IMG/VR virus record: IMGVR_UViG_3300049259_000021
Location: 1-20,180 of that record
DNA from: a virus
DNA: 20,180 bases
Reading direction: 5' to 3' (one strand)
The position numbers and the translations under genes are program-made. A model generated the notes under the pieces. That model was not told where the DNA came from. It did not search any database and worked only from the letters and a program-made list of their open reading frames with translations. Positions 1,647 to 17,298 of the stretch are shown piece after piece. Within the stretch, counting starts at the first letter, position 1; each line of letters starts with the position of its first letter.

Positions 1647-1760
1647 TGTTGACAGACCTTGCAAACAGCCGCCTCGATTTGACTCCCTGTCCTCGCTGCG
1701 CGATGTATCAATGCAGCATGAGGTTTTGTGCCCCGGTCCAAGCGGCCGGGGTTTTGTTTT
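1647..1760 (+). repeat. Dispersed repeat R1: TTGAC boxes, conserved leader and terminator
   Basis: The 114-bp unit begins TGTTGACAGACCTTGCAA, has a second TTTGAC box about 30 bp on, then TATCAATGCAGCATG, then the GC hairpin and T-tract. The same order and spacing occur at 1887-2000 and, decayed, at 8140-8252. An ATG at 1711 opens a 36-codon frame (MQHEVLCPGPSGRGF...), which may be accidental. Promoter-like character is inferred from the TTGAC boxes; the distance from the second box to the AT-rich GATGTATCAA segment is longer than the usual 17 bp. Confidence 0.8.
1731..1760 (+). terminator. Intrinsic terminator of R1
   Basis: 8-bp stem CCCCGGTC/GGCCGGGG (one G-T pair), 5-base loop, followed by TTTTGTTTT. 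Confidence 0.85.
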
Positions 1761-1886
1761 CGGCAGACGGCGGATGCTTGTGTGGCGCCGGCGCTGCCAG
1801 CCCGCTCGTGAATTCGAGTGAATCGAAAACAACATCGCGCCACAGTCCTAGCGACCGATGCCGCGACGGGAAGAAAAAATGCGCAA

Positions 1887-2000
1887 TGTTGACAGACCTT
1901 GCAAATGTGCCTCGGCCGTTTGACATCCAGCGCCCGATGCACGATTGATAAATGCAGCATGCGGTTTTGCGCCCCGGCCCAGCGGCCGGGGTTTTGTTTT
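1887..2000 (+). repeat. Dispersed repeat R2: TTGAC boxes, conserved leader and terminator
   Basis: Second 114-bp copy. It starts with the same 18 bases as R1, has TTTGACA at 1919-1925, TGATAAATGCAGCATG at 1946-1961, then the hairpin. Conservation is strongest in the outer boxes, the ATGCAGCATG segment and the terminator; the spacers differ, as expected if the boxes and hairpin are the functional parts. R2 lies upstream of the 2099 gene. Confidence 0.82.
1972..2000 (+). terminator. Intrinsic terminator of R2
   Basis: Perfect 8-bp stem CCCCGGCC/GGCCGGGG with a 4-base loop, then TTTTGTTTT. Confidence 0.9.
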
Positions 2001-2098: not shown

Positions 2099-3016
2099 AT
2101 GGGAATGTGGGATTGGATTGAAGAGCAATATCCGGCGCCCGGTTCGCGTGCTGGAGCGAACGGCTTTCCGCCGCTGTCGGCGTCCGATGCGACTTTGCTG
2201 AGGCTTATCGAGCAGGGCGTGGCTGCAGGAGCTCGGGAGGAGGACGACGATCCAAGTGCGGCACAAGCTGCGCGGCAGACAGGCGCCGCGGCGCTCGCGC
2301 GAGCGGTGAAGCCGCCTTATGGTCGCGACAAGGGTTGGCTGACGCAAACCCCGGAAGATTGGGTGCAGCAAATTTCGCCTCTGCTGAAACCCGGATACCC
2401 GGTATGGCCATCTCCATCCAATCGGGTTTCGCCGATGTCCGCGCCGGCGTCACCTATGCCTTTTGGTGAGTCCGCTGAGATTGACGAACCGAGTGCATCG
2501 CAAGCCGCACGGGACGCCGCCGCCGGGACCCTCGCCAGAGCGGCAAGGCACCCGTACGGCCGGGTCTTTAGACCTGTTACGGCGCCCAGCGCGCCGGCAG
2601 TGACCGAGAATATGCAGCAGTCTGAGGAAGCACGCCAAGCCGCAGCGTCGCGGCTCGCGAATGCCGTGCGCCGGCCGATCGGACCGCTGCCGCCGCCCTC
2701 AATCCCACCTTCGACTGTGGCTCCGGTGGAAACCGAGGAAATGCGTCAAAGGCAAGCGGCAAGCGAGGCTGCAGCGCGGACAATCGCAAATGCGGTACGG
2801 CCCCCAGAGGGCCGTAAGCCATCTAACTTGGAAGAATCCTCGGCCCCCTATCGAACGCAATTCAATGACTATTTAGAGCGTCAATTTGGGAAAGAGGACC
2901 GAGTAGAGATTCACTCTCCTGAAAACCCCAAAGATTGGAAGGAGATGTGGGACTTGGCAAGAAAATATGGGCCCTGGGTGTGGGAGATATTCAAGAAACG
3001 TCCTAGGCGGCGTTGA
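2099..3016 (+). CDS. Repeat-containing protein of unknown function, 305 aa
   Basis: Starts at ATG 2099; the nearest purine-rich stretch (AAGGAA, about 2080) is rather far for a ribosome binding site. The protein holds four copies of an Ala-rich motif of about 25 residues, at roughly residues 52-76, 131-155, 174-196 and 216-239, with consensus QAAR-x2-AA-x2-LA-x-AV-x2-P-x-GR. Pro/Ser-rich linkers separate the copies. The C-terminus (about 250-305) is different: aromatic and acidic, ending in a basic KKRPRRR tail. No signal peptide or membrane helix. It lies where a terminase or head protein might be expected, between R2 and the portal gene, and is closed by its own terminator. It could be an internal virion or DNA-binding protein; I do not recognise a family. 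Confidence 0.75.
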   Translation: MGMWDWIEEQYPAPGSRAGANGFPPLSASDATLLRLIEQGVAAGAREEDDDPSAAQAARQTGAAALARAVKPPYGRDKGWLTQTPEDWVQQISPLLKPGYPVWPSPSNRVSPMSAPASPMPFGESAEIDEPSASQAARDAAAGTLARAARHPYGRVFRPVTAPSAPAVTENMQQSEEARQAAASRLANAVRRPIGPLPPPSIPPSTVAPVETEEMRQRQAASEAAARTIANAVRPPEGRKPSNLEESSAPYRTQFNDYLERQFGKEDRVEIHSPENPKDWKEMWDLARKYGPWVWEIFKKRPRRR

Positions 3017-3030
3017 CCACGCTTTTTGCG

Positions 3031-3060
3031 CCCGGCCTAACGAGCCGGGGTTTTGCTTTT
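3031..3060 (+). terminator. Intrinsic terminator after the repeat-containing protein gene
   Basis: Stem CCCGGC/GCCGGG with a 7-base loop, then GTTTTGCTTTT. The flanking TTTTTGCGCCCGGCC resembles the 3' part of R1 and R2, so it may be a truncated member of that family. Confidence 0.82.
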
Positions 3061-3133
3061 CGGCCTGCGCCTTTTCGCCGTCTGAATCAGAAATGCACCC
3101 GCTTCCTGCTCATCAACAGGTTGACCACCACCC

Positions 3134-5296
3134 ATGCCTAAAATGACCGAGCTTGAACTCAAGGCGTTGCTCGACGCCGAGAAAGCCGCGGCGCTGTCGG
3201 CGCCACAGGCGTCGCGGCTCAGCTCCGACCGCGAGCAGGCGCAGCGTTACTACCTCGGCGATATGAGCCGCGACATGCCTTCGCTCGAAGGCCGATCGTC
3301 GGCGGTCTCGACCGACGTCGCTGACACCATCGAAGGCCTGATGCCGACTTTGATGGACATCTTCTGCGGCGGTGACGAGGTGGTGCGCTTCGATCCAGTG
3401 GGTCCGGAGGACGTCAAGGCCGCTGAGCAGGAGACCGATTTCGTCAATCACGTCTTCATGCAAAAGAACCCAGGCTTCCTGGTCCTCTACACGTTCATCA
3501 AGGATGCGCTTCTCTCCAAGACCGGCATCGTCAAAATCTGGACGGAGGAGGAGCTCAACGAGACGCGCGAGACCTATTACGATCAGCCCGAGGACATGGC
3601 GGCGTTGATCGTCGCCAATCCCGAGCTGGAGGTGGTCGCGCACACCGAGCATAACGGCCTACATGACATCACGGTCGTCCAGCGCAAAACCGTCAAGCAT
3701 CACAGAGTTGCGGCGGTGCCGCCCGAAGAGTTTGGCATTTCGCGCAACGCGCGAAGCATCCGGGACGCCGGCTATGTGTTTCACGAGGTCGAGCGAACCG
3801 AGGCCGATCTCATTGCCGACGGTTACGATGCCGAGCAGGTGAAAGACCTGCCGAGCTACACCGCGATCGCGACCGGCGAGCGCTGGGCGCGCGACACTGT
3901 AGAGGAGGGCGAGCTCCAACGCGGTGACGATGGCCTCAACCGTGCCAACCGCATCATCCGGGTCACCGAGCACTATGTGCGGATGGACTATGAGGGAAGG
4001 GGACACGCCAAGCTTTATCGCGTGACGACGGCCGGCGAGGGCGGCGACATCCTGGTGAAGCAGGGCGAGCCGCAGGTGATCGAGATCAACCGCATCCCGA
4101 TGGCGGCCATGACGCCGATCATCGTCACGCATCGGTTTTTCGGCCGCTCGGTCGCGGACCTGGTGATGGACATCCAGCGCATCAAGACCGCGCTGATCCG
4201 GGGGATGCTCGACAGCTCGTATCTGTCGGTGAACCCTCGGGTCGAAATCGCAGAGTCGCACGCCACCGAGACCACGCTCGACGACATCCTTACCATGCGG
4301 CCGGGCATGCCGATCCGCACCAAGCAGCCGGGCGGCTTGATCTGGCAGCAGGTGCCGTTTGTCGGCGCCGATATGCTGCCGATCATCCAGTTCATGGACA
4401 CGACGCGGGAATGGCGCACCGGCGTCAGCCGGCAGGGGCAGGGCCTCGATCCGGGCGCCTTGCAGAACCAGGTGGCGACCATCGCCAACCAGATGTTCAG
4501 CGCGGCCCAGGCGAAGGTGAAACTGATTGCGCGAATCTTTGCCGAGACCGGCATGCGTGATCTGTTCTCGCTGCTGCATGCCGAAATTCGAGAGAACGGC
4601 GATGCAGCACAGACGATCCGCTTGCGCAATCAGTGGGTGACGGTCGATCCGACCGACTGGCGAGAGCGCAACGATCTCACCATCAATGTCGGGCTCGGCA
4701 ACGGCTCGAAGGCCGAGCAGCTCGCGCACTTGCAGTTGATCATCGGCGCGCAGAAGGAAGCCATTGCAGCTGGGATGGTCAGCCCGAAGAACCTTTACGA
4801 ATCGGCCAAGCAACTGGTGCGGCTCGCCGGCTACAAGGACCCGGATGCCTATTTCACGGCGCCGGGCCGGCCGCCCGATCCGAACGACCCGACAAGTGCG
4901 CCGGTTTCGCCGCCGGCCAATCACCAAGTCCAAGAAGTCCAGCTCAAGGCGCAGCTCGACCAGAAGGCTGCCGAGCACCGGGCCGAGATCGAGAAGGTCC
5001 AGGCGCAGGCCGATATCGTAACGCAGGACCGCAAGACGCAGGCCGAACTGGCGCTGATGGAGAAGAAGTTCGCGCTCGAGAGCCAGATCGCGCTGGTTGA
5101 GGCGCAGCTCAAACGCGAGGAGCATCAATTCAAGATGCAGGCTCGGCAGCGGGTGCATGATGCGGAGATGTCGCGCGTTCACAACCAGCACGGATCTGCG
5201 ATGGCGCAAATGAACCGCTCCGCGAATGACGCAAAGGATGACCAAGTGAACGATCGCATGAACGACCAGGCACATCACAACATGGGGCAGCCATAA
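3134..5296 (+). CDS. Portal protein, P22-type long portal, 720 aa
   Basis: Forms the dodecameric ring at one capsid vertex through which DNA enters and leaves and to which the tail connector docks. The N-terminal region has the family pattern of long podovirus portals: a YYLGD motif (about residue 40), then LEGRSSAVSTDVADTIEGL and MPTLMDIF (residues about 51-76), then an acidic 'FDPVGPEDVKAAEQET' block. The length is close to the 725 aa of the P22 portal. After about residue 600 the protein becomes a long Gln/Glu/Lys coiled coil ending Asn/His-rich, matching the helical barrel of P22-like portals. Met 3134 is chosen because the N-terminal helix starts right after it; no strong ribosome binding site is seen. 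Its stop overlaps the next start by one base. Long antisense frames here are shadows. Confidence 0.9.
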   Translation: MPKMTELELKALLDAEKAAALSAPQASRLSSDREQAQRYYLGDMSRDMPSLEGRSSAVSTDVADTIEGLMPTLMDIFCGGDEVVRFDPVGPEDVKAAEQETDFVNHVFMQKNPGFLVLYTFIKDALLSKTGIVKIWTEEELNETRETYYDQPEDMAALIVANPELEVVAHTEHNGLHDITVVQRKTVKHHRVAAVPPEEFGISRNARSIRDAGYVFHEVERTEADLIADGYDAEQVKDLPSYTAIATGERWARDTVEEGELQRGDDGLNRANRIIRVTEHYVRMDYEGRGHAKLYRVTTAGEGGDILVKQGEPQVIEINRIPMAAMTPIIVTHRFFGRSVADLVMDIQRIKTALIRGMLDSSYLSVNPRVEIAESHATETTLDDILTMRPGMPIRTKQPGGLIWQQVPFVGADMLPIIQFMDTTREWRTGVSRQGQGLDPGALQNQVATIANQMFSAAQAKVKLIARIFAETGMRDLFSLLHAEIRENGDAAQTIRLRNQWVTVDPTDWRERNDLTINVGLGNGSKAEQLAHLQLIIGAQKEAIAAGMVSPKNLYESAKQLVRLAGYKDPDAYFTAPGRPPDPNDPTSAPVSPPANHQVQEVQLKAQLDQKAAEHRAEIEKVQAQADIVTQDRKTQAELALMEKKFALESQIALVEAQLKREEHQFKMQARQRVHDAEMSRVHNQHGSAMAQMNRSANDAKDDQVNDRMNDQAHHNMGQP

Positions 5297-5577
5297 TGTA
5301 CTACTTCGGAACCGGCCGGCTCGGCACGCATCAAAGTGCGGCCTACACCGCCACCGCAGGGACGATCACCAACGCCATGGGTTCGCAGACCTACAAGGTC
5401 CGTATCGTTTGCACGACAGACGCCTTCGTGAAGGTCGGCGACGCGCCGACCGCCACCACCTCTGATCCGCTGTTTCCGGCCAATTCAGTGGCATACGTCA
5501 CCATCACGCCAGGACAGAAAGTATCGGCGGTGCAATCGAGTGCCGGCGGGACACTCCACGTCACTGAGGTGGTCTGA
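5296..5577 (+). CDS. Small beta-rich virion-type protein, 93 aa
   Basis: ATG overlaps the portal stop by one base (TAATG), implying coupled translation. The protein is Thr/Ala/Val-rich with alternating strand-like segments (YKVRIVCTTDAFVKVG, VAYVTITPGQKVSAVQ) and no charged helices, as in small phage beta-sandwich proteins. Similar small proteins occur in head modules near the portal gene. No catalytic residues. A decoration or head-completion role is inference from fold type and position. Confidence 0.75.
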   Translation: MYYFGTGRLGTHQSAAYTATAGTITNAMGSQTYKVRIVCTTDAFVKVGDAPTATTSDPLFPANSVAYVTITPGQKVSAVQSSAGGTLHVTEVV

Positions 5578-5636
5578 TCTCTGCTCCAGGCGGCGCCTGC
5601 GGCAACGATCCTGGCGGCCAGACGCAGGCAAGATTC

Positions 5637-5717
5637 ATGACCGAGCAAGCTCAGCAGACGCTGGTGCGCCGCGCGCACAGGGTCTGCAAAGGATTAATTG
5701 GAGGGAGGAGCGTTTGA
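5637..5717 (+). CDS. Possible 26-aa leader ORF overlapping the FkbM start
   Basis: ATG at 5637 opens a short basic peptide (MTEQAQQTLVRRAHR... ending GGRSV). Its TGA stop at 5715-5717 shares bases with the TTG proposed as the start of the methyltransferase (TTGA). That geometry would couple the two, but it could also be the true N-terminus of the methyltransferase separated by a frameshift. No clear ribosome binding site of its own. Confidence 0.35.
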   Translation: MTEQAQQTLVRRAHRVCKGLIGGRSV

Positions 5718-6502
5718 TCGCCTTTGTCCTTGCCCAGTCGCACTGCGGCTCGCTGATCGTCAATCGATTCGATTACAATCATGCGTTCAATGGCCACCGG
5801 TATGGTGTCGGTTCGCAGATTCTCGACACCGGCTCTTATGATGCGGATGAAGTCGAGACGCTGCAATCGCTGCTCATGCTGCTGCGAAAGTATCGTGGGG
5901 ACGGCGTCGTGGCGCTGGATTGTGGTGCCAATATCGGCGTTCATACGATCAATTGGGCGGCGCTGATGAAGGGGTGGGGGAGCGTCATCGCCATTGAGGC
6001 GCAAGAGCGGATTTTCTACGCCCTCGCGGGCAATATCACGCTGCACAACGCCTTCAATGCCCGTGCGGTTTGGGCTGCAGTGGGCAGAGAAGATGGTCTC
6101 ATCGAAATTCCAGAGCCGGATTATCGGAGGCCGGGCAGCTTCGGCAGCTTCGAATTGAAAGAGCGGCTCGGCAACGAGAACATTGGCCAGCCGATCGATT
6201 ATAGCAGCCCAAAATCCCGGGTCCGAACGATGACGATCGACGGATCTGCGCTCGACCGCGTGGATCTGATCAAGCTGGATGTCGAAGGCATGGAGCTTGA
6301 GGCGCTTTCAGGCGCCATGACAACCATCAAGACGTATAGGCCGGTGCTGTTCATCGAGACGATCAAGATCGACAAGAAAAAATTTGAACAGGTGCTTGGA
6401 GAGGTGGGCTACCGATTCTACGCCCATGGCATGAACGTGCTTTGTGTCCATGCCGATGACCCGATTGTAGGTCACGTCCGGTCGGAGAGAAAGTCGAGAT
6501 GA
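5714..6502 (+). CDS. FkbM-family SAM-dependent methyltransferase, about 262 aa
   Basis: Expected to move a methyl group from S-adenosylmethionine to a hydroxyl, usually on a sugar or glycan. From TTG 5714, the SAM-binding loop is LDCGANIGVHT (about residues 68-78), the acidic end of strand 2 is in IAIEAQER (about 92-99), and the FkbM block IKLDVEGMELEAL is at about 186-198. Frame signal before 5714 is poor: the open stretch from 5540 overlaps the previous gene and reads as Arg/Ser-rich nonsense. A purine-rich GGAGGGAGGAG (5700-5710) sits just before TTG. The stop overlaps the next gene by ATGA. Lying between portal and scaffold genes, it is cargo that probably modifies virion or cell-surface glycans; the substrate is unknown. 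Confidence 0.85.
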   Translation: MIAFVLAQSHCGSLIVNRFDYNHAFNGHRYGVGSQILDTGSYDADEVETLQSLLMLLRKYRGDGVVALDCGANIGVHTINWAALMKGWGSVIAIEAQERIFYALAGNITLHNAFNARAVWAAVGREDGLIEIPEPDYRRPGSFGSFELKERLGNENIGQPIDYSSPKSRVRTMTIDGSALDRVDLIKLDVEGMELEALSGAMTTIKTYRPVLFIETIKIDKKKFEQVLGEVGYRFYAHGMNVLCVHADDPIVGHVRSERKSR

Positions 6503-7905
6503 ACGACACGGTGGCGCGGTATAAATCACTCGCCGCTGCATTGCTTCGTGAACCGGACAACCCAGAGCATTTAGTCGATCAGTTCGCCCTTTTATCCGGC
6601 AATGGCGATCGGGCTAATGGCAAGCATTACCTCTATCTTGCGCGGCGCGCCTACAATGCGGCACCGGACAGTGTCAATGCAGCGTTCAACTATGGTTCGG
6701 CATTGCAGCGGGCCGGGAGATTTGCCGATGCTAAAGAAATGTACCGCTGGTGTGTCGATCATGCCTCCGCTGATTGGCTGACGCGGTGCCTCCATCATCT
6801 TGGGATCGCGTACCGAGCGCTCGGTCAGAACGAGCGCGCCATCGAATACTACGACCAGGCGATATCGCGAGATCCTGATCCTCAATTTCGAAAGGACCGC
6901 GCACTGGCTAAAATGGCGAATGGCTGGCTGCGCGAAGGGCTTGAGGAGTTTGAATGCCGGCGCGAACTCGCCGAGCAGCGGCTTGCGGCCAACAATGGAG
7001 AATTGATCGCGCAGCGGCGGTTGCCAGCCGGCGTGAGACATTGGCAAGGCGAAGACCTCGCGGGTAAGACGCTCGTCGTCTACCAAGAGGAAGGCGCCGG
7101 CGATTTCATCCAATTCTGCCGATTTATCCCGCGACTGCGTGACACAGGGGTGGGGAAGATTGTGTTGACCGGCCCGGCACCGGATCTTCTGGAAATGGTG
7201 TCCGACCACATCGCAGCGGACGATATTGCGCCGCTGTCGGAGCCTCTCGAATGCGATTATGTCACGGGTTCGATGTCGTTCCCGTGGAGGCTCGGCGTGG
7301 ATTACAAGGATGTGTCTGGCAAGCCTTACATGAAGACAGAGCCCGCCAGGTTTCCACGGCGTGGGCGCTTGAATGTCGGTCTGGTGTGGCGCGGCAACCC
7401 GGCCTACGGCATGGACGTTCATCGGTCCATGCTGTTTCGTGAACTGTGCCCGCTGTTCGATTTAAATGGCGCGGCGTTCTACTCGCTGCAGCTCGGGCCC
7501 GCCGCGGCAGAGATAGGCCACCTTGGATTTGATGGTTTTGTCGCCGACCTCACGTCCTTTGCGAGGAGCTGGCGAGCGACGGCGCGGCTGATCAAGAGGC
7601 TCGATGTCGTCGTGACCGTTGATACCGCGGTGGCGCACCTCTCCGGCGCACTCGGTGTCCCGGTTCTGACGATGGTCACCAATGCCTGCGACTGGCGTTG
7701 GGACCGCAGCAACGAAAAGACGGTCTGGTACGACTCGATGCGGGTGTACCGGCAGAACGATCAGGACGATTGGACGCCCTGCATACAGCGCGTGCGAAAT
7801 CGATTGATGGAGATGCTCGATGAGTCAGAACGGAACGCAAGAAACGACGCAAGACAGGGTTCATGCGACGATAAACCGAGGGCTTCGAGCGGCGCAGTTG
7901 CTTGA
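6499..7905 (+). CDS. TPR protein with glycosyltransferase (GT9/heptosyltransferase-like) domain, 468 aa
   Basis: Begins at the ATGA overlap with the methyltransferase, so the two are translated together. Residues about 56-155 contain tetratricopeptide repeats (AFNYGSALQRAGRFADAKEM; HHLGIAYRALGQNERAIEYY). The C-terminal half has the TPR-linked glycosyltransferase pattern: VVYQEEGAGDFIQFCRFIPRL (193-213), LNVGLVWRGNP (291-301) and VDTAVAHLSGALGVPV (374-389), followed by DWRWDR. This domain resembles ADP-heptose:LPS heptosyltransferases; TPRs often bring it to protein acceptors. It probably adds sugar to a virion or surface target that FkbM then methylates (inference). The last 28 residues or so are low-complexity and lie in the overlap with the next gene. 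No signal peptide; cytoplasmic. Confidence 0.82.
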   Translation: MNDTVARYKSLAAALLREPDNPEHLVDQFALLSGNGDRANGKHYLYLARRAYNAAPDSVNAAFNYGSALQRAGRFADAKEMYRWCVDHASADWLTRCLHHLGIAYRALGQNERAIEYYDQAISRDPDPQFRKDRALAKMANGWLREGLEEFECRRELAEQRLAANNGELIAQRRLPAGVRHWQGEDLAGKTLVVYQEEGAGDFIQFCRFIPRLRDTGVGKIVLTGPAPDLLEMVSDHIAADDIAPLSEPLECDYVTGSMSFPWRLGVDYKDVSGKPYMKTEPARFPRRGRLNVGLVWRGNPAYGMDVHRSMLFRELCPLFDLNGAAFYSLQLGPAAAEIGHLGFDGFVADLTSFARSWRATARLIKRLDVVVTVDTAVAHLSGALGVPVLTMVTNACDWRWDRSNEKTVWYDSMRVYRQNDQDDWTPCIQRVRNRLMEMLDESERNARNDARQGSCDDKPRASSGAVA

Positions 7906-8128
7906 GCACGAAGCCTTCAAGGACGCCACCAGTGCGCTCGCCGAGCAATTGATGGATCGCTGGCGCGTCTCGAGCGATCCGACCGAACGTGAACGTATCT
8001 GGCTGTCGGTGAACCTGCTCGATCAGATCAAAGCCAAGCTCGCCATCGTCGCCAACAACGGCAGGCTTGCCAAGAAAGAGCTCGATGAGCTCACCGCGAG
8101 CCGGCGCTCTCGATTCGGGCTTGCTTGA
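7820..8128 (+). CDS. Small helical phage protein, 102 aa
   Basis: ATG 7820 has GGAG about 8 bases upstream (in GATGGAGATGCTCG) and overlaps the glycosyltransferase gene by 86 bp in another frame. The sequence is all-helical and charged (LLEHEAFKDATSALAEQLMD; ERIWLSVNLLDQIKAKLAIV). Proteins of this size and type are frequent between portal and scaffold genes in phages of this kind, so I take it as real and attribute the overlap to an extended tail of the upstream protein. No enzymatic motif. Function unknown. Confidence 0.72.
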   Translation: MSQNGTQETTQDRVHATINRGLRAAQLLEHEAFKDATSALAEQLMDRWRVSSDPTERERIWLSVNLLDQIKAKLAIVANNGRLAKKELDELTASRRSRFGLA

Positions 8129-8139
8129 GGCGCCGACGA

Positions 8140-8252
8140 TGTTGACGGACGTTGCAAGAAGCTTGTCAACGTTTGACACATCCCGCCAGATCGGTCAGTG
8201 ATAAATGCAGCATGAGGCTTTGCACCTCGGCCCAACCGGCCAGGCTTTCTCT
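8140..8252 (+). repeat. Dispersed repeat R3, decayed copy at the start of the scaffold gene
   Basis: Third copy of the R1/R2 unit: TGTTGACGGACGTTGCAA, TTTGACA 33 bp on, TGATAAATGCAGCATG with the same 75-base spacing as R2, then a damaged hairpin (CCTCGGCC/GGCCAGGC, with a C-A mismatch) and TTTCTCT instead of the T-tract. The terminator function is therefore probably lost, while the upstream boxes are kept. The scaffold reading frame enters at the ATG (8205) within the repeat. Confidence 0.75.
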
Positions 8253-9266
8253 GCAAGAACCGACAATATTTCGCAGGACATGCGCGCCCCGGCGGCGCCG
8301 TCTGCAAGAGATTCGGAGCCGCAAGGCGAAGACGCCACCCTTCTGCAGGAGATCGCATCTCCACCGGAAGCCCCTGGCGAGACGCACGAGGCAGACCCGG
8401 CCGCACGGCCGCCCATCGCGCCTCCGAGGTCTTGGACGAAGGACGCAAGAGCGCATTGGCACACCTTGCCCCGCGAGACGCAAGCATATGTTGCGGCCCG
8501 CGAACAGGAACGCGAGCGTGAATTGCGCCGGAGCCAAAATGAGGCCGCTGCAAAGCTCAAGAGCTTAAAAAGCAAAGAGCAAGCAGCCGAACAGGCAAGG
8601 CAGAAATACGAGATCGCATTGTCGACCCTCCTGCAAGCGCTGCAGGGTCTCCACGCGGCCACGTTCGCTGATATTACTTCGGTAGAAGATGCGAACAGGC
8701 TCGCAGTGGTCGATCCGCCGCGGTTCAAGCTATGGCAGGCCCATCGCCAACAGATGGGCATGCTGGAGCAAGAACTGCGGCGGGCGCGCCAGCATCGGGT
8801 GCAAGACAGTCAGGCCAGGTGGTCCGCGTTCGCAAGCGAACAGGACCGGCTTTTCCTGCTAAGAGCACCGAAGCTGTCAGATCCCACGTGTGCGCAAAGG
8901 GCAACGGGTGCCGCTACTCGCATTCTTGAGGATATCGGATTCAACCAAGACGAACTGAAACAGGCGTGGACAGGGGAGCGATTTTTCTCCCTTCGCGACC
9001 ACCGCCTTCAGTGGTTGATGTTTGAGAACATTCGATACCGCGAGCAATGCGATATTGTGGACGTCGCAAGAGGCAATGCAATCGACCTTCTGCCTTCCCT
9101 TCGGCGGCTCGCAACCGCCTCCGCTCGCAACGCTCTCGCGTCAAGTTCGGACGCGGCGGCGTTCATCCAAACCCTCGAACAGAAACTCGAAACCACAAGC
9201 GGGCTTGCCGCACTGAAGCTCGGTGCAATGCTCACCGCGCTGAAGCAGCATTCTGCCGCTCGTTAG
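8205..9266 (+). CDS. Capsid scaffolding-like protein, 353 aa
   Basis: Lies directly upstream of the major capsid gene, where scaffolds are encoded. Residues about 74-110 read PPRSWTKDARAHWHTLPRET then YVAAREQERERELR, a pattern typical of phage scaffold proteins of alphaproteobacterial phages. A long Glu/Lys/Arg coiled coil follows (about 100-140) and the C-terminal half is helical. The first 70 residues are Pro/Glu-rich and disordered-looking. Two starts are possible: ATG 8205, which lies inside repeat R3 and has no ribosome binding site, and ATG 8280, preceded closely by AGGA. The second would remove 25 residues derived from the repeat. Scaffold role is inferred from position and composition; no protease domain is seen. 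Confidence 0.72.
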   Translation: MQHEALHLGPTGQAFSARTDNISQDMRAPAAPSARDSEPQGEDATLLQEIASPPEAPGETHEADPAARPPIAPPRSWTKDARAHWHTLPRETQAYVAAREQERERELRRSQNEAAAKLKSLKSKEQAAEQARQKYEIALSTLLQALQGLHAATFADITSVEDANRLAVVDPPRFKLWQAHRQQMGMLEQELRRARQHRVQDSQARWSAFASEQDRLFLLRAPKLSDPTCAQRATGAATRILEDIGFNQDELKQAWTGERFFSLRDHRLQWLMFENIRYREQCDIVDVARGNAIDLLPSLRRLATASARNALASSSDAAAFIQTLEQKLETTSGLAALKLGAMLTALKQHSAAR

Positions 9267-9279
9267 AAAGGCTCAAAAC

Positions 9280-10236
9280 ATGGCACTCGCCACTTCCGCC
9301 TTCACGACCTACGCCGCTCTTGGCAATCGTGAAGATCTTTCCGATACCATCTGGAGAATCGATCCGACGGACACGCCATTCTACTCCAGTCTCGAACGTG
9401 AGAAGGCGGTCGCCGTCAATCACGAATGGCAGACCCAGGCGCTCGCGCCCGCCGCCGCCAACGCGCAGCTCGAAGGCGACGACAACGTGACGCCCAACGC
9501 GGCCACGCCGACGGCTCGGCTCGGCAACATCACGCAGATTCAGACCAAGATTGCTCGCGTCACAGGCACGCAGATCGCGGTCGAGCACGCCGGTCGTGAC
9601 GATGAAATGGATTATCAGGTCATGCTGAAGGGTCTCGAGCTCAAGCGTGATGCGGAGTTTGCGTTCGTGGGCTCCAACCAAGCCAAATCCGCGGGTAATG
9701 CCACATCGGCCCGCACGCTTGCTTCTGTGTTGGCCTGGATCAGGACCAACACCGACAAGGGCGCAAGCGGCGTGGATCCGGTGCCGGTCGACGGCAGCGG
9801 TGCGCGCACCGACGGCACTCAACGGGCTTTCACCGAGGCGCAGCTCAAGGCTGTGATCCAGAAATGCTGGACCGCTGGTGGCAAGCCCGAAACCATCATG
9901 CTGGGTGCGTTCAACAAGCAGGCTTTCTCGACCTTTGTCGGCCGGGGCACTCCCATGCAGGACCAGGGCCAGAAGAAGATCACCGCAGCGGCTGATGTGT
10001 ATGAATCCGATTTCGGTCGCCTCAAGACTGTCCCCAATCGTTTTATGCGCGCTCGCGACTGCCTGGTATTGCAAATGGACCTGTGGGCTTCGGCCGCGAT
10101 CCCGGGGCGTAGCTTTGTGACGTTTCCGTTGTCGAAAACCGGCGATACCGAGCGCAAGCAGATCCTGGTTGAGCACACCCTGGTATCGCGTCAGGAAGCG
10201 GGTTCCGGCGGTGTCTTCGATCTGACCACGTCGTAA
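9280..10236 (+). CDS. Major capsid protein, SU10-type (DUF5309 family), 318 aa
   Basis: Forms the icosahedral or prolate shell. The N-terminal region carries the family pattern: DLSDTIWRIDPTDTPFYSSL (about residues 19-38), then HEWQTQALAPAA and an EGDDN block (about 65-69). The rest reads as a typical HK97-fold shell protein. The start is ATG 9280, with AAAGG 9 bases upstream and 13 bp after the scaffold stop. The strong ribosome binding site and the terminator immediately after the gene fit very high expression. The N-terminus shows no obvious processing site. SU10-type capsids occur in short-tailed phages, some with elongated heads. Confidence 0.9.
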   Translation: MALATSAFTTYAALGNREDLSDTIWRIDPTDTPFYSSLEREKAVAVNHEWQTQALAPAAANAQLEGDDNVTPNAATPTARLGNITQIQTKIARVTGTQIAVEHAGRDDEMDYQVMLKGLELKRDAEFAFVGSNQAKSAGNATSARTLASVLAWIRTNTDKGASGVDPVPVDGSGARTDGTQRAFTEAQLKAVIQKCWTAGGKPETIMLGAFNKQAFSTFVGRGTPMQDQGQKKITAAADVYESDFGRLKTVPNRFMRARDCLVLQMDLWASAAIPGRSFVTFPLSKTGDTERKQILVEHTLVSRQEAGSGGVFDLTTS

Positions 10237-10261
10237 CGGGTACTGTCATCTGATTGGTCTT

Positions 10262-10292
10262 GAGGCCGCCCTTGGGCGGCCTCTTTCTTTCT
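10262..10292 (+). terminator. Intrinsic terminator/attenuator after the capsid gene
   Basis: Perfect 9-bp stem GAGGCCGCC/GGCGGCCTC with loop CTTG, followed by TTTCTTTCTT. It lies 12 bp before the next ATG, with that gene's TAGGAG ribosome binding site directly after it, so it probably attenuates rather than ends the operon. Confidence 0.88.
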
Positions 10293-10304
10293 TAGGAGAA
10301 TGCA

Positions 10305-10670
10305 ATGGCTCTTCCCGTTACCCACCGCTTTGACGAGCGTGTTCTTCAGACCACCGCGGCGAGCGTCGCGACCGGCCTCGCCGGTGTCGCCCGTGCGCCG
10401 TGCCGTGGTCAGATCACCGAGGTCGGTACTGTGATCGGCTCGGTGGTTTCAACTGCAGACGCGACCTGTACGACCAGCATCGCCGGCACCAACATCACCG
10501 GCGGTTCGTTTGTGATCACCCAAGCCGGTTCCGCAATCGGTGATTTGGACAATGCGCTGCCGACCGCCGCAAACGTCTGCAATGAGGGCGATGCCATCAA
10601 GTTCGCCTTCAGTGGCACCGGTACGGCCGGTGGCCACGTTTACTGCTACGCCGTTTTGCGACCGATCTGA
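10305..10670 (+). CDS. Head decoration-like protein, 121 aa
   Basis: ATG 10305 has AGGAG 7-8 bases upstream (TAGGAGAATGCA). The protein is Gly/Ala/Thr-rich and beta-like throughout (ITEVGTVIGSVVSTADATCT; FSGTGTAGGHVYCYAVL), with a short N-terminal arm and four Cys. Being alone between two strong hairpins directly after the capsid gene fits a protein made in large amounts that coats the capsid. No enzymatic motif. Head fibre or decoration is inference. Confidence 0.7.
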   Translation: MALPVTHRFDERVLQTTAASVATGLAGVARAPCRGQITEVGTVIGSVVSTADATCTTSIAGTNITGGSFVITQAGSAIGDLDNALPTAANVCNEGDAIKFAFSGTGTAGGHVYCYAVLRPI

Positions 10671-10677
10671 TTCTGGT

Positions 10678-10707
10678 GGCCGGTCCGCGAGGGCCGGCCG
10701 ATTTCTT
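10678..10707 (+). terminator. Intrinsic terminator/attenuator after the decoration-like gene
   Basis: 9-bp stem GGCCGGTCC/GGGCCGGCC with one T-G pair and loop GCGA, followed by a short GATTTCTT. The T-tract is weak, so read-through is likely. Confidence 0.7.
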
Positions 10708-10729
10708 CGACTTGCCATTCGGATATTAA

Positions 10730-11026
10730 ATGAGCGACGTCATCACTGTTCCAAATATCGATCATTCCGAGAAGCTGATCCACTTTGCGCGATGGCAAAA
10801 CGTCGAGGACATCATCGAGAACAACAAGCGACTACAGACGGTGCCCCAGAAGTCCGACTGGGGCCGGCACGTTGCCTCGATCCCCAATGTTATTCTCGAG
10901 CAGTGGCTCAATGAAGAGTACCGGCGCGGCAACGTCAGTCTCCGGCCGTATACCAAGGAGTTCGACGCCATTATCGAGAAGAAGCTTCAAGATCCAGACT
11001 GGCGCTGGTTGAGAACCGACAAATGA
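10730..11026 (+). CDS. Conserved-type phage structural-region protein, 98 aa
   Basis: ATG 10730 follows the hairpin. The stop overlaps the adaptor start by ATGA (11023-11026). The helical protein has a C-terminal block IPNVILEQWLNEEYRRGNVS, then SLRPYTKEF and DPDWRWLRT, which I associate with small proteins found after the capsid gene in phages of this kind. No catalytic residues or membrane helix. Coupling to the adaptor gene suggests a head-completion or connector role; the exact role is unknown. Confidence 0.72.
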   Translation: MSDVITVPNIDHSEKLIHFARWQNVEDIIENNKRLQTVPQKSDWGRHVASIPNVILEQWLNEEYRRGNVSLRPYTKEFDAIIEKKLQDPDWRWLRTDK

Positions 11027-11622
11027 GCATCAGCACCTACAACGAGCTAAAAACCGCAATTGCGAGCTGGCTTGCGCGCGATGACCTGAGCGCGTTCATC
11101 CCGGATTTCATCACGCTGTTCGAGGCGTCGGCGTGCCGTGAGTTGCGTGTGCGTCCGGCCGAAGCCACAGCGATGATCACGCCATCGTCCGGCGCGGCGG
11201 CATTGCCGGCGGACTTCCTGGCCACGCGGCGGCTGACCTGGACTGGATCGCTAAACCGCGATCTCGAATATGTGCATCCGGTCTGGTTTGCGCAGAATTA
11301 TCCCACTTCGGCCGCCGGTACGCCTGCCGTCTACACCATCGAGGGCGGTACCCTAAAGGTGCGGCCCGTGAGTGACGTGCCGCTCGAACTCCTCTATCGC
11401 GCCAAGACTCCCGCGGTGAGCGGCGCGCTGAATTGGCTCTTCACCAATCATCCCGACGTCTATCTCTTTGGATCGCTCGCCGAGGCTTCCATGTTCAATA
11501 AGGATCCCGAGAACGCAGCGCTGTGGGAAGGTCGCCGCGATAAAGTCTACCAGAGCATCAAGGGCGCCGACTTCCATTATCGCGAAGTCGGCGCGCCACG
11601 AATTGCAGGATACACCCCGTGA
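11023..11622 (+). CDS. Head-tail adaptor protein, SU10-adaptor-like, 199 aa
   Basis: Connects the portal ring to the tail nozzle. The N-terminus (STYNELKTAIASWLARDDLS, then IPDFITLFEASACRELR) and the middle (LPADFLATRRLTWTG; PAVYTIEGGTLKVRP; LLYRAKTPA) fit the helical-plus-insert pattern of the SU10/P22 gp4-like adaptor group. The C-terminal helix (NHPDVYLFGSLAEASMFNKD) is also typical. Overlaps by ATGA with the gene before and by TGATG with the nozzle-like gene after, giving one coupled connector block. Confidence 0.82.
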   Translation: MSISTYNELKTAIASWLARDDLSAFIPDFITLFEASACRELRVRPAEATAMITPSSGAAALPADFLATRRLTWTGSLNRDLEYVHPVWFAQNYPTSAAGTPAVYTIEGGTLKVRPVSDVPLELLYRAKTPAVSGALNWLFTNHPDVYLFGSLAEASMFNKDPENAALWEGRRDKVYQSIKGADFHYREVGAPRIAGYTP

Positions 11623-13091
11623 TGCCGATCTTAAGCTTTGGCGAATACCGGCCCGATGTATCAGACTATCAGGGCCAGCATAGCCGCACGATTTTGAACG
11701 TCGTGCCGCGAGGTGACGGATATGGACCATTCCTCGATTTCGTGACTTTCACCTCGGCTCTGCCTGCCACTTGCCGGAGCTATTTTTATGCTCGCAAGAA
11801 TGACGGATCGGTCTCGGTCTTCGCCGGCACAGCGACCAAGCTGTACAATTTAAACAACACTGACGGCAGTTGGGGCGACGTCAGCAAATCCGGCAGCGCT
11901 TATTCGGCGCTATCCGGCAATGCGCAATGGCAGTTTGCGCAATTCAATAACTTTGTGCTCGCAGTGCAAGCCAATGCGCCGGTGCAGGTGTTCGACCTCA
12001 CGACGTCAAGCGCTTTCGCCGATCTGGCGGGCTCACCTCCGGCGGCGGCTTACGTTACGGTGGTCAATCGTTTCCTGGTGTTGTCCGGAATGGCATCGCC
12101 GAATGTCTATCGCGTGCAATGGTCCGGTCTGAACGACACGACACAATGGACGCCTGGCGTCAATCAATCCGATTTTCAGGATCTCGCCGACGGCGGGATG
12201 GTGCGTGGCGTGGCTGGCGGCGAGTACGGCGTAATTTTCCAGGACGGCTCAATCCGTCGCATGACCTTTTCACCCGGCTCTCCTTACGTATTCGGCATTC
12301 AGCGGATCTCGCAGGACGACGGCCTGTTCGCACCCTATTCATTGGTGAGTGCGGGCGACAGGATCTTTTTCTGCTCTCCTCAAGGCTTCAAGATGCTGTT
12401 GCCGGGCGCAAACCCGGTGCCAATCGGCAAGGAGCGGGTTGATGCGAGTTTCTTTTCTGAGTTCGACGCGTCGAATGTGCAGCTCTTCGTTGGCGCTAAT
12501 GATCCGCGCAGTACACGGGTCTACTGGGCCTATAAGTCGAGCAATGGCGCGACGGGGCGCTTTGACAAGATTCTGATCTATGACTGGGCGCTCGAGCGCT
12601 GGTCGAAGGTTTCGATTGCGGGCGAATACATCGCCTCGCTGTCGCAACCCGGCGTGACGCTCGAGGGGGTCGACACGGCCTACGGATTCAATATCGACAC
12701 GTTGCCGCTGTCTTCGCTGGACGACATCTCAAACGCCGCGCTGTCCAAGATTTCTGCAATCGGGACGGCGCACAATATGGGCTTTTTCACTGGAGTGGCA
12801 CTGGAAGCGACACTCGACACGGCAGAGCAGGGTGGCGACGGGCGTCGCGTGTTTGTGCGTGGCTTTCGTCCGGTTACCGATGCGGCGACGGTGTATGGTT
12901 CGATCCTGTCGCGCGAAACCGCGCAGGCGCAGTCAGTGACCAGTGCCGAGTCGATGGTCAATGCCATTGGCTCGTGTCCACAGCGCGTCTCGACGCGCTA
13001 TGCGCGCGGCCGGGTCAGGATTCCTGCCGGCACGACCTGGAGCTTCGCCGCGGGGGTCGAGCCGGATATAGCCCAGGAGGGCGGCCGATGA
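11619..13091 (+). CDS. Tail nozzle/hub protein, P22 gp10-like, 490 aa
   Basis: Proteins at this place form the tail tube below the adaptor and close the channel against DNA leakage. The sequence is beta-rich throughout with repeated strand-turn segments (FYARKNDGSVSVFAGTATKL; QFNNFVLAVQANAPVQVFD; VNRFLVLSG; GGEYGVIFQDGSIRRM; DRIFFCSPQGFKML), as in a beta-propeller of this family. The frame starts at GTG 11619, but ATG 11622, which shares a base with the adaptor stop (TGATG), is the likelier start and gives 489 aa. No tape-measure or tube gene follows, which supports a short tail. Distinguishing nozzle from packaged-DNA stabiliser is not possible here. Confidence 0.78.
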   Translation: MMPILSFGEYRPDVSDYQGQHSRTILNVVPRGDGYGPFLDFVTFTSALPATCRSYFYARKNDGSVSVFAGTATKLYNLNNTDGSWGDVSKSGSAYSALSGNAQWQFAQFNNFVLAVQANAPVQVFDLTTSSAFADLAGSPPAAAYVTVVNRFLVLSGMASPNVYRVQWSGLNDTTQWTPGVNQSDFQDLADGGMVRGVAGGEYGVIFQDGSIRRMTFSPGSPYVFGIQRISQDDGLFAPYSLVSAGDRIFFCSPQGFKMLLPGANPVPIGKERVDASFFSEFDASNVQLFVGANDPRSTRVYWAYKSSNGATGRFDKILIYDWALERWSKVSIAGEYIASLSQPGVTLEGVDTAYGFNIDTLPLSSLDDISNAALSKISAIGTAHNMGFFTGVALEATLDTAEQGGDGRRVFVRGFRPVTDAATVYGSILSRETAQAQSVTSAESMVNAIGSCPQRVSTRYARGRVRIPAGTTWSFAAGVEPDIAQEGGR

Positions 13092-13107
13092 CAAAGAAGA
13101 GCGTCCG

Positions 13108-13425
13108 ATGACTGTAGGGGCCGGACTTTCATTGTCTGACGACGAAACTGAGCAGCGGCCGCAGAACTTCGTGATCCGTCAGCTCATCGAAGGCCGCTCG
13201 AATGCGGTCGGCCAATGCACGCTCACAGCCAACGCAACCAGCACCACAGTTGCAGCGATCAATTGTGGAGCCAACTCGGCGGTGTTTCTCTTTCCCAAGA
13301 CCGCACACGCCGCTGCCATCTCGGCGTCAACCTACGTGTCAGGCGTATCGGCGCGACAGTTCGTGGTGACGCATCCGAACAACGCCAATATCGACAAGGA
13401 CTTCTACTTTGTCTGTCTTGGCTGA
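13108..13425 (+). CDS. Small phage protein, 105 aa, beta-rich
   Basis: ATG 13108, 16 bp after the nozzle-like gene. An N-terminal acidic stretch (LSLSDDETEQRPQNFVIRQL) precedes a beta-rich domain (TATNA-like repeats, SAVFLFPKTAHAAAISASTY, RQFVVTHPNNANIDKDFYFV). It looks like a small virion component such as a fibre-associated or decoration protein. No motif identifies a function. The last 17 bp overlap the next gene. Confidence 0.7.
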   Translation: MTVGAGLSLSDDETEQRPQNFVIRQLIEGRSNAVGQCTLTANATSTTVAAINCGANSAVFLFPKTAHAAAISASTYVSGVSARQFVVTHPNNANIDKDFYFVCLG

Positions 13426-13819
13426 AGCAGTGTGCGTCGATCCAAAAGAGGTCACCTGCATTTGGGAGTGCGTCAGGCATTGGATCAGGCGGGCCATGGA
13501 GCGCGGCGATCTCGGTACTTTTGACGAGGTCGAAGACGCCGTTACGAGTGGGCAAGCTCTGCTTTGGCTCGTTTGGAAAGAGCCGGAGATCCTGGGGGCC
13601 GCCGTGACTCAGGTCGTTGCGACCCAGAAGAGCAGAATCTGCATCATCGTTGCGTGCGGCGGCGAGAACCTAAGACTCTGGCTGCCGCTTGTAACGAAAA
13701 TCGAGAGCTACGCACGAGAAGAGGGCTGCGATGCAGTCCGAATTCTCGGGCGCAAAGGCTGGATGCGCGTCTTGAAAGGCTACAGCGCGCCGGCGGTCAT
13801 CCTGGAGAGGCGACTTTAA
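13409..13819 (+). CDS. Small internal virion protein, T7 gp13-like/GNAT-fold type, 136 aa
   Basis: The proposed start is TTG 13409, preceded by AAGGA (13396-13400) at 8-base spacing; GTG 13430 is an alternative. The C-terminal half, LWLPLVTKIESYAREEGCDA then VRILGRKGWMRVLKGY and VILERRL, matches the tail of acyltransferase-fold phage proteins related to T7 internal virion protein A. Such proteins often lack the acetyl-CoA loop and are not known to be active enzymes. Position between nozzle-like and internal or tail-tip genes fits. Its stop is followed at once by the next ATG (TAAATG). Family assignment is moderate. Confidence 0.65.
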   Translation: MSVLAEAVCVDPKEVTCIWECVRHWIRRAMERGDLGTFDEVEDAVTSGQALLWLVWKEPEILGAAVTQVVATQKSRICIIVACGGENLRLWLPLVTKIESYAREEGCDAVRILGRKGWMRVLKGYSAPAVILERRL

Positions 13820-14731
13820 ATGGGCGGTACATCGAAGACCACACAGCAGACGCAGCAATCGTCGACCACCAATCCTTGGGAGCCGACACAAGGCATCCTC
13901 AAGGACATCTTGAGCGGTATTCAAGGGCAGGTCGGCAACTATCAGCCGACTTCGGCGGAGACAGCAGCAATCCACCAACTCGAGGCCAATGCGCAAAACC
14001 TGCCGAATTACACGCCGCAGGCTACGAGCCTGGCGAACGATTACCTGACCGGCGGCCCGGACCGCTCCGGCATCGTTGGCGACGCCTACAATGCGTCGAA
14101 GTCAGCACTTAATCCCTACCTCAATCCGGACTGGCTTGACCCAACCAAAGTGCCTGGGATCGCTGCGGCGCTCGACACAGTTCGCAATGATGTGAAGAAC
14201 TCGGTCGACGGCACGTTCGCCGGCGCCGGCCGTGATCTCTCCGGCTTGCATATGCAGTCGCTGGCACGCGGCATCGCGCAGGGTGAGGCGCCCGTGCTGC
14301 TCGATGCGTACTACAAGAACGCCGGCTTGCAACAGAACGCGGCGACCGCGCTGCCGGGAATCGCCAATTCGGCGGCCACCACCCAATCTGGTCTCGACCA
14401 AACGAGCCTCGCCAATCGGGCGCAGGGCTTGAATGTCGGCCTCAACACAGTGCCGCAGGCGGCGAATGCCAGTGCTACCGGCGTTCTCAATGCGGAAAAT
14501 CTGCTGCGCGCGTTGCCGCTTCAGAACCTTGGACTGCTGTCCAATTTGACGGTCCCAATCGCCGGCCTCGGCGGGCAGACTTATGGCACCAGCAATACGG
14601 TTGGCACGCAGACCATGTCGCCAGTTCAGCAGTTCGCGACGATCATGAGCGGGTTGAACAGCGGCTTCGGCGGAACAGGCGGGGGCGGCGCCACGGGCCT
14701 GCTCAAATTTCTTCAGTCCTTCCCGGGATAA
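13820..14731 (+). CDS. Gln/Ser/Gly-rich virion protein of unknown function, 303 aa
   Basis: ATG directly follows the upstream stop. The N-terminus (MGGTSKTTQQTQQSSTTNPW) is polar and disordered. The body is Asn/Ala/Leu-rich and helical (LARGIAQGEAPVLLDAYYKN; ANRAQGLNVGLNTVPQAANA), and the C-terminus is a Gly-rich linker (GFGGTGGGGATG) plus a short hydrophobic helix. This composition occurs in ejection-type or internal proteins of short-tailed phages, located just before the fibre gene. No lytic transglycosylase motif is visible. The role is inference from order and composition. Confidence 0.68.
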   Translation: MGGTSKTTQQTQQSSTTNPWEPTQGILKDILSGIQGQVGNYQPTSAETAAIHQLEANAQNLPNYTPQATSLANDYLTGGPDRSGIVGDAYNASKSALNPYLNPDWLDPTKVPGIAAALDTVRNDVKNSVDGTFAGAGRDLSGLHMQSLARGIAQGEAPVLLDAYYKNAGLQQNAATALPGIANSAATTQSGLDQTSLANRAQGLNVGLNTVPQAANASATGVLNAENLLRALPLQNLGLLSNLTVPIAGLGGQTYGTSNTVGTQTMSPVQQFATIMSGLNSGFGGTGGGGATGLLKFLQSFPG

Positions 14732-14771
14732 ACGACAACATCGTCTTGAATCCGAATCGACCACCGTCCAC

Positions 14772-14799
14772 CCCCGGCTATGCCGGGGTTCGCTTTTTT
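14772..14799 (+). terminator. Intrinsic terminator/attenuator before the tail fibre gene
   Basis: 7-bp stem CCCCGGC/GCCGGGG, loop TAT, then TTCGCTTTTTT. The ribosome binding site GAGGAG follows directly at about 14800. Confidence 0.85.
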
Positions 14800-14813
14800 G
14801 AGGAGCTCCCTTC

Positions 14814-16361
14814 ATGGCCACCGCTGGCGTCCCACTCTGGTCAACCACCCCTGCAAACAACGCGACAGCCGATCCTGCTGTGAACTGGGCCGAAGGCATG
14901 GCGCCATCTGCGGTGAACGACTCGGCACGCGCGATGATGGCGTCGGTGGCGAAGTGGCGCAACGATCTGTCCGGCGTCGCGACTGGCGGGTCGTCGACGG
15001 CCTACACCGTGGCGACCGGCGCTACCTTTGCTTCGGCGTCCGACATGTCCGGGATGGTCTTCTCCATCATCCCGCATGTTACTTCGGGTGCATCGCCCAC
15101 GCTCTCTGTGGATGGTCTGACCGCGCGCGCCATCAACGACTCGACAGGTGTGGCGGTGACCACCGGCGCTGTGATTGCCGGCACGCCTTATCTTGTGAAG
15201 TATGTCCATGCTTCGACTGAGTTCATTCTGCTCGGCCGCTCCAGTGTCTTCACCACGCTGAAGGCAACCAGCGCCATCATTGCCGCGCCTGGAACGACGG
15301 CAGGGCGCCCGAGCGCGATCCAGGGAGGCTTTCGGTTTAATACCGACACGGGTCTTCCCGAGTTCAGCGATGGCGCCAACTGGCTCTCGCTCATCACGAC
15401 GCTGGGCGGCGCTCAAATGCCTTATGGCGCGGTCGTCAACGGCACAATCGCCGAGAGCCATACCGGCAATGCTGTCACCTTCGCCCTTAAGACGCTAGCC
15501 GGAAATGATCCATCGGCGAGCGATCCGGTGCTGCTGGCCTTCCGCAATCCGACCTTGGCAACGGGCAATTACATCTACCGCACGGTGACGGCGGCACTGA
15601 GTCTCGCGCTGTCGTCCGGTTCCAAGATTGGCGCTGTTGATGGTGTCGCATTCAAAGTCTGGTTGGTGCTTTTCGATGATGGCGGCACGATCAAGCTCGG
15701 CGCGATCAACTGTGTCTCGGGTAGTAGTGTTTACGCGCTGGGACAGGCTCCGATTGCCAGCTCGACCGCAGACGACAACTTGGGTGGCTCCGACCTAGCC
15801 CAAGTTTTCTACACTAAAAATGGCATCACCGCTGTTTCATCCAAAGCCTATGTCATTCTTGGATACGCGGCGTATGAATCCGGCCTCTCGACAGCGGGGA
15901 ATTGGAGCGTCTCGCCAACAAGCATTCAGCTCTACGGCACCGGGGTGCCTCTTCCTGGGAGTTGCGTCCAGTCTGTCTACAATTCGACAACGACGACGAC
16001 CGTGTCATCAGGTGGGGCAACAATACAAACGTCTTTGACGGCAAGCATCACGCCAACATCAAAGTGCAATCTCATCAAGGTCCAAGCCTTCGGCAGTATC
16101 ACCGGTGCCATTTCGAGCGGGGTAAGTTACAGCGTTCAACTTTCTCGTGGGACATCTCCTACGCTCATTGGCAACGTTTCTGGCTTGTTAGGTGGCGGTG
16201 GCAACGGCGGAAGTGGCACTGCAAACGTAGCGATAGATAAGCCTCAGACTACATCTCTTCAGGCTTATTACGTGTACCTCAGCCAATCTACTACGGGTGG
16301 TCAGATTACGTTTCTGAATCAAGGCGCTGGTATAATGCAGCTAGAAGAAATCGCGGCGTAG
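14814..16361 (+). CDS. Tail fibre/receptor-binding protein, 515 aa
   Basis: ATG 14814 has GAGGAG about 8 bases upstream. The N-terminal region has the phage fibre attachment pattern NWAEGMAPSAVNDSARAMMA (residues about 24-43). It is followed by a Gly/Ser/Thr-rich beta-repeat body (YTVATGATFASASDMSGMVF; GGFRFNTDTGLPEFSDGANW), a short beta-helix-like motif common in fibres. The C-terminal region (about 390-515) is more divergent, Thr/Ser-rich, and ends GIMQLEEIAA. Such a protein should bind the host surface; the receptor cannot be predicted. It is the last gene of the rightward structural run, next to a minus-strand island. Confidence 0.82.
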   Translation: MATAGVPLWSTTPANNATADPAVNWAEGMAPSAVNDSARAMMASVAKWRNDLSGVATGGSSTAYTVATGATFASASDMSGMVFSIIPHVTSGASPTLSVDGLTARAINDSTGVAVTTGAVIAGTPYLVKYVHASTEFILLGRSSVFTTLKATSAIIAAPGTTAGRPSAIQGGFRFNTDTGLPEFSDGANWLSLITTLGGAQMPYGAVVNGTIAESHTGNAVTFALKTLAGNDPSASDPVLLAFRNPTLATGNYIYRTVTAALSLALSSGSKIGAVDGVAFKVWLVLFDDGGTIKLGAINCVSGSSVYALGQAPIASSTADDNLGGSDLAQVFYTKNGITAVSSKAYVILGYAAYESGLSTAGNWSVSPTSIQLYGTGVPLPGSCVQSVYNSTTTTTVSSGGATIQTSLTASITPTSKCNLIKVQAFGSITGAISSGVSYSVQLSRGTSPTLIGNVSGLLGGGGNGGSGTANVAIDKPQTTSLQAYYVYLSQSTTGGQITFLNQGAGIMQLEEIAA

Positions 16362-16377
16362 CCATTAAATTTGAAGA

Positions 16378-16405
16378 CTCTCGTCGGCCCGAATCCGCGC
16401 GAGAG
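16378..16405. terminator. Possible hairpin between convergent genes
   Basis: CTCTCG/CGAGAG (6-bp stem) with a 16-base loop between the fibre gene and the convergent dioxygenase gene. No T-tract on the plus strand, so it is only a candidate. Confidence 0.3.
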
Positions 16406-16486
16406 CTCCAATCTCACCACCATCTTCGTCTTCGCTCCGGCAGCTAGGCGTCTACAACAATTTTCTTGGTGAAGTAATGATCTGAT

Positions 16487-17290: not shown

Positions 17291-17298
17291 AGCGACCC

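Follow-up and report, generated by a model that had tools for sequence, protein, structure and literature searches.

Repeated promoter-like and terminator-like modules before the late genes of a soil podovirus, with a possible role as terminator-gated late promoters

Late genes and repeat units in the window

The window, which is the whole stretch of DNA analysed here (a virus record of 20,180 bases), contains the late region of a podovirus, a soil phage. Portal, head scaffold, major head protein, two more virion structural proteins and endolysin were encoded in it, and the closest named relative of the portal protein was found in Bradyrhizobium phage ppBeUSDA76-2 (51% identity). Repeat units were located among these genes, of which R3 and a lone terminator half had been missed in the preliminary description. 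The features are as follows.

1647..1760, plus strand: unit R1, 114 nt, with upstream box TGTTGACAGACCTTGCAA (1647-1664), TTTGAC (1678-1683), ATGCAGCATG (1711-1720), hairpin and T-rich tail (1730-1760)
1887..2000, plus strand: unit R2, 114 nt, with upstream box (1887-1904), TTTGAC (1919-1924), ATGCAGCATG (1952-1961), hairpin and tail (1970-2000)
2099..3016, plus strand: cargo-like ORF of 305 aa with no assigned function, between R2 and the lone terminator
3024..3064, plus strand: lone terminator half of the unit, after ORF 2099-3016 and before the portal gene
3134..5296, plus strand: portal protein gene (phrog_1216, E 8e-163), 3' of R1, R2 and the lone terminator
8140..8253, plus strand: unit R3, at the start of the scaffold gene, with upstream box (8140-8157), TTTGAC (8172-8177) and ATGCAGCATG (8205-8214)
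8205..9266, plus strand: head scaffolding protein gene, ORF of 353 aa (phrog_3927, E 6e-8), overlapping R3 and extending 3' of it
9280..10236, plus strand: major head protein gene

Two related contigs, L145 and L146, were compared with the window. A homologue of ORF 2099-3016 was present in L145, and none was found in L146. A truncated ORF (93-380) encoded the helix-turn-helix of DnaA domain IV (PF08299), of which a 239-aa version was encoded by L146 (1-720). An FkbM-type methyltransferase and a TPR/glycosyltransferase-9-like protein were encoded between portal and scaffold (5540-7905), in both relatives too, with an extra GDSL lipase-like ORF in L146 (6405-7550); the genes of this interval look like cargo inserted in the head gene block. 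In addition, a phytanoyl-CoA dioxygenase-like gene (PF05721, 16487-17290), a possible auxiliary metabolic gene, lay on the minus strand, opposite to the late genes.

R1 and R2 were real units of 114 nt with a shared start, TTTGAC, ATGCAGCATG and a hairpin, as first noticed, and the pattern was larger than stated then. Both began with the same 18 nt (TGTTGACAGACCTTGCAA); TTGCAA was followed after 13 or 14 nt by TTTGAC and then after exactly 27 nt by ATGCAGCATG, and the end was a GC-rich hairpin with terminal GGCCGGGGTTTTGTTTT. The equal spacing ascribed to them held to within one base: the units differ by a 1-nt indel in the interval separating the boxes, which is offset by a second 1-nt indel in the loop of the hairpin. 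When up to three mismatches were allowed, the start motif had three matches in the window vs 0.10 expected, a number reached by none of 100 shuffles. The hairpins of R1 and R2 ranked among the strongest terminator-like sites in the first 10.4 kb of the window. For R3, ATGCAGCATG also supplied the scaffold ORF (353 aa) with its first ATG, and the hairpin was degenerate in the window and intact at the corresponding place in both relatives.

R1-R3 gave no match to a strict sigma-70 promoter. TTGAC was present in the units, which did not fit the consensus of TTGACA, 16-18 nt and a TATAAT-like -10. Only GANGTA or ANGTAT stood at the normal spacing (17-18) from TTGAC, and a TATAAA-like string lay 20-21 nt from it, so the early concern over the placement of the -10 was right. 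A sigma-54 promoter, which needs GG at -24 spaced ten bases from GC at -12, was rejected, with TTGCAA present and no GG at the required distance in a reading of the alignment. The upstream box was TTGA-N8-GCAA in 10 of 11 copies, and its half-sites fit the FixK2 box of Bradyrhizobium, TTG(A/C)-N6-(T/G)CAA (PMC5582078); the spacing was N8, not N6, and therefore a FixK2 (CRP/FNR) box was rejected. The minus-strand reading was also rejected, with the hairpin having no T-run on that side.

Conservation in close relatives and the same layout in distant ones

The window-type unit was found in four copies each in L145 (portal 86% identical) and L146/L147 (93%), which refuted the possibility that R1 and R2 were a random pair found nowhere else. 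Exact-pattern scans of IMG/VR gave no contigs beyond these two relatives, and no named phage matched. One match was obtained from the genome collection with the exact pattern, a Bacteroidales MAG, which looks like chance, and the matches of a loose-pattern scan were mostly chance. The places of the units corresponded between the contigs, with a tandem of two or three preceding the portal block and a single one at the scaffold start. R1 had orthologues in L146 (about 1949) and L145, and R2 had one in L146 (about 2188). Between the window and L146, R1 was 85% and R2 92% identical, vs 66% for the DNA before, 72% between and 49% after them. The selection on a small functional unit which had been suggested was supported by these values and by the recurrence of the units at matching gene positions in the two relatives.

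In L146 the portal gene was preceded, at 85 nt, by a complete unit (about 3772-3889), at the place where the window and L145 keep the terminator only. Near this portal start the only promoter-like site seen was inside the module, and the hairpin separated it from the gene. The difference between the contigs at this place, and the bracketing of variable cargo genes by modules in several relatives, would agree with non-transcribed repeats which were spread by recombination, delimit cargo cassettes (morons) and resemble each other through recent duplication. Against this, orthologous units were more conserved than the DNA between them, and the same geometry was met by unrelated sequences (described below), which duplication cannot explain. 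Such an origin is improbable.

The alignment of 11 copies contained 46 invariant columns, which were arranged in blocks, from 5' to 3' TGTTGA..GA..TTG.AA, TTTGAC, AATGCAGCATG and the hairpin. These blocks might encode a short peptide (ATG/GTG TTG ... TTT GAC ... TGA) 5' of a gene starting at ATGCAGCAT, as a leader-peptide or coupled-translation device, and the frame RTG TTG .. GAC .. was indeed open in most copies, often with TGA or TAA just before ATGCAGCATG. Third codon positions were fixed, however, while first positions varied (CTT/ATT/GTT GCA, in which GCA keeps its third base), and 1-nt indels occurred between copies, by which coding was rejected as the main cause; two copies were frameshifted by the 13-nt spacing. 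No ribosome-binding site was evident before either start, and the variable sites at the scaffold N-terminus showed no third-position excess. A peptide is thus a highly improbable explanation.

The relatives with 50-64% portal identity were without the window-type sequence. When their intergenic DNA was searched blindly for repeats, others with the same anatomy were revealed, namely TTGAC, a -10-like box and a GC-rich hairpin with a T-rich tail. Examples were TTGACG-N16-CTAGGAGAAAATCCACAGTTGGAATTGCGCCCG-hairpin (L175, L182, L183, L179 and L170), TTGACG-N17-CTAGA..TTTGCGCCCGG-hairpin (L222, L223 and L226), TTGACACGTCGGGCAAATCACCGGCATA..hairpin (L254, L280, L241, L259, L286 and others) and a fourth one in L167. 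At least five module types of unrelated sequence shared the layout, mostly with 48-57 nt from box to hairpin and with up to four copies per contig. They preceded terminase, portal, scaffold, capsid or cargo genes, and the box was always before the hairpin and oriented toward the late genes. In other relatives one of the types, type 4, sat a few hundred bp 5' of the major head protein gene, and in Microcystis phage Mae-JY02 TTGACA lay about 48 nt before a hairpin, 5' of the terminase gene. The original idea of a promoter with an immediate terminator was strongly, if indirectly, supported because distant relatives carry sequence-unrelated modules of that layout, with good -35 and -10 elements and a similar box-to-hairpin distance; the window units themselves were without a consensus -10, and the first interpretation was partly supported overall.

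The distance was also counted in 110 non-redundant related podovirus contigs (1.30 Mb), with TTGAC required 46-58 nt 5' of a hairpin-plus-T-tail. On the late strand TTGAC occurred 38 times, the first among all 60 pentamer permutations (next 26, median 6), and its distance to the hairpin peaked at 40-69 nt; the opposite-strand count was 21, third of 60. There was no excess in 139 unrelated viral contigs (count 9, thirteenth of 60, median 6). As related copies are included in these counts, it is safer to rely on how many independent lineages there are, at least five.

Several side observations were made on the contigs. The TTGACACGTCGGGCAAATCACCGGCATA block, of 22-29 bp, was almost invariant across many soil podovirus contigs (L286 862-952 and 2128-2218; L280 3598 and 5570; L254 9601; L297 4257; others), each followed by a hairpin of mostly kept structure, and no earlier description of it was found. 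Another repeated promoter-like element (CGCTTGACTCGCGTAACGAGAATCTTCCAGAAAAGCGTATTCACC; TTGACTTTGTAACCCGAATCTTCTATAG) was present in L155, L212, L215, L156 and L157, about 200-500 bp 5' of the portal gene and elsewhere, with no obvious terminator at 50 nt. A tandem duplication of 151 bp (97% identical, 174 bp apart) with TTGACATTGAAAC lay 5' of the portal gene in L165 (4440-4764). Copies of a palindromic, REP-like repeat, CCCTCATCCTGAGGAGC..GCGTCTCGAAGG, were seen in a phage contig, L155/L237 (3030-3130, 8849-8940, 10052-10140 and 11316-11410). In L302 (G008, reversed) the portal gene was seemingly split into reading frames with non-phage-like ORFs between them (4473-18272), which suggests a decayed or heavily cargo-laden prophage.

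Possible gating of late promoters by terminators

In 14 divergent copies of type 4, the -35 and spacer reached 1.9-2.0 bits per column and the start of the -10 was almost invariant, and the DNA upstream of the module was unrelated between copies (about 0.2 bits per column). The first bases of the predicted transcript, CATCGcAAGA, were conserved (1.3 bits per column). The hairpin varied in sequence (0.45 bits) and its fold persisted, with z between -1.8 and -5.3 in most copies, the weak-folding ones being those of L276 and L279. The -35/-10 spacer had 1.91 bits per column in type 4 vs 0.98 in the window type, in which the upstream box and the first stretch of the predicted transcript were conserved, not the spacer. 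For a plain promoter a conserved spacer is unusual. In type 4 it may be comparable to the lambdoid Q binding element, where 21Q binds between -35 and -10 and lets polymerase pass a downstream terminator (PMC6606751); AlpA binds between -10 and -35 with the same outcome (PMC7969949, PMC9371919), and the invariant type-4 spacer is the trace expected of a protein bound in this place. Since the spacer was not conserved in it, the window type shares the layout and may be recognised differently from type 4.

The preferred reading, with a probability of about 0.5, is that the units could be control modules for podovirus late genes, in which late promoters would be gated by a terminator and opened by an antiterminator. 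It is built on the units, their conservation and multiplicity, their place before late genes, and the recurrence of the layout in relatives whose modules are unrelated in sequence; its predicted parts are that the units act as promoters, that transcripts end at the hairpin, and that an antiterminator exists and allows readthrough. If TTGAC is taken as the -35 and the spacer as 17, transcription would start about 36 nt after TTGAC, and the transcript would run into the intrinsic terminator hairpin, with onset about 16 nt after the probable start. Because the hairpin is so near the start, the default product would be a short RNA of about 45-50 nt. A phage factor would bind at or near the promoter and make RNA polymerase terminator-resistant (antitermination); in the window lineage its target might be the upstream box, the conserved stretch transcribed first, or both, and in other lineages the -35/-10 spacer. 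The resistant polymerase would then read through to portal, scaffold, capsid and cargo genes, and with several modules per genome late transcription would restart at each block.

Some observations speak against gating: the window units have no consensus -10, the R3 hairpin is degenerate, the window-type spacer is not conserved, some module types have weak T-tails (CTTTGCGTTT), and TTGAC ranked third on the opposite strand. A hairpin so close to the RNA 5' end (about 16 nt), with the U-tract short or interrupted in several types, might instead be a 5'-end stem-loop which guards late mRNAs from decay, behind an ordinary (perhaps activated) late promoter with little termination. This is quite unlikely, as many copies had a clean terminator tail (GCTTTTT; GGGGTTTTGTTTT), the window hairpins were among the strongest terminator-like sites of their region, and the lone half at 3024-3064 followed ORF 2099-3016 like an ordinary gene-end terminator.

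The modules might also encode short non-coding RNAs, of about 45-50 nt, which act in trans and consist of a conserved single-stranded 5' stretch and the terminator hairpin, the late-gene neighbourhood being incidental. For the window type, as for type 2, conservation was highest in the initially transcribed stretch (AATGCAGCATGNGGTTTTGCG; GAGAAAATCCACAGTTGGAATTGCG), and copies in tandem with no intervening gene existed; both points fit such RNAs. The promoter spacer of type 4, however, was more conserved than its transcribed part, and the modules stood repeatedly right before portal, scaffold, terminase or capsid genes. No Rfam match above the gathering score was obtained in the window, by which a known structured RNA was rejected as well. 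RNA genes of this kind are therefore doubtful.

The antiterminator which terminator gating would need was searched for, and no candidate was identified in the records, which are mostly fragments. The Q families PF06530 and PF03589 had no match in the records of 24 relatives, mostly fragments, and PF06323 had none in the relatives in a search made without positive control. ORF 383-1027 sits 5' of R1, the place of Q in lambda; it was set aside with no Pfam or PHROG match, and its AF2 model had a pLDDT of 47, too poor for a fold search. ORF 1279-1584, with no family match, was set aside too. Among four type-4 contigs inspected, no clear candidate for a common regulator gene was seen.

Relation to known antitermination and significance

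Late-gene antitermination is known from single lambdoid phage promoters and from AlpA in Pseudomonas, and at lambdoid Q-type late promoters a sigma-dependent pause occurs where the initially transcribed region has a -10-like sequence. The modules are like lambdoid PR'-tR' with Q (lambda, 21 and 82) in sequence layout, with a promoter-like site and then an intrinsic terminator 5' of late genes, and in the short leader RNA predicted as the default product. They differ from it in having several modules per genome vs one and a hairpin which begins about 16 nt past the probable start; a Q homologue was not found, and in the window type the spacer varies and an upstream box is conserved instead. The units would work like a terminator-gated late promoter, and membership of the lambdoid Q system is not claimed.

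By analogy, the proposed passage of a promoter-proximal terminator with an antiterminator is also like AlpA at PalpB-tB of Pseudomonas aeruginosa (and PA0807), and AlpA does this in more than one operon (PMC7969949, PMC9371919). Here no AlpA-like protein was identified, there were more modules with unrelated sequences, and they belong to a podovirus family. In phage morons a cargo gene comes with a promoter and a terminator of its own; the modules resemble morons in bracketing variable cargo genes (window 2099-3016; L182; L280), unlike them in a promoter-terminator gap of about 50 nt with no gene inside.

A broader proposal, made tentatively and with less confidence than the gating itself, is that the late genes of this soil podovirus family may be run by many scattered promoter-plus-terminator modules and an antiterminator, several module sequences having arisen or diverged beyond recognition with the layout kept. 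Because the modules are many and scattered with a kept layout, antitermination would act block by block and not once per genome. If this is true, a multi-copy, distributed form of antitermination in these podoviruses, relatives of a Bradyrhizobium prophage, would mean new sites and a new regulator, and the modules would offer an explanation for how cargo genes could be inserted among late genes without breaking late transcription.
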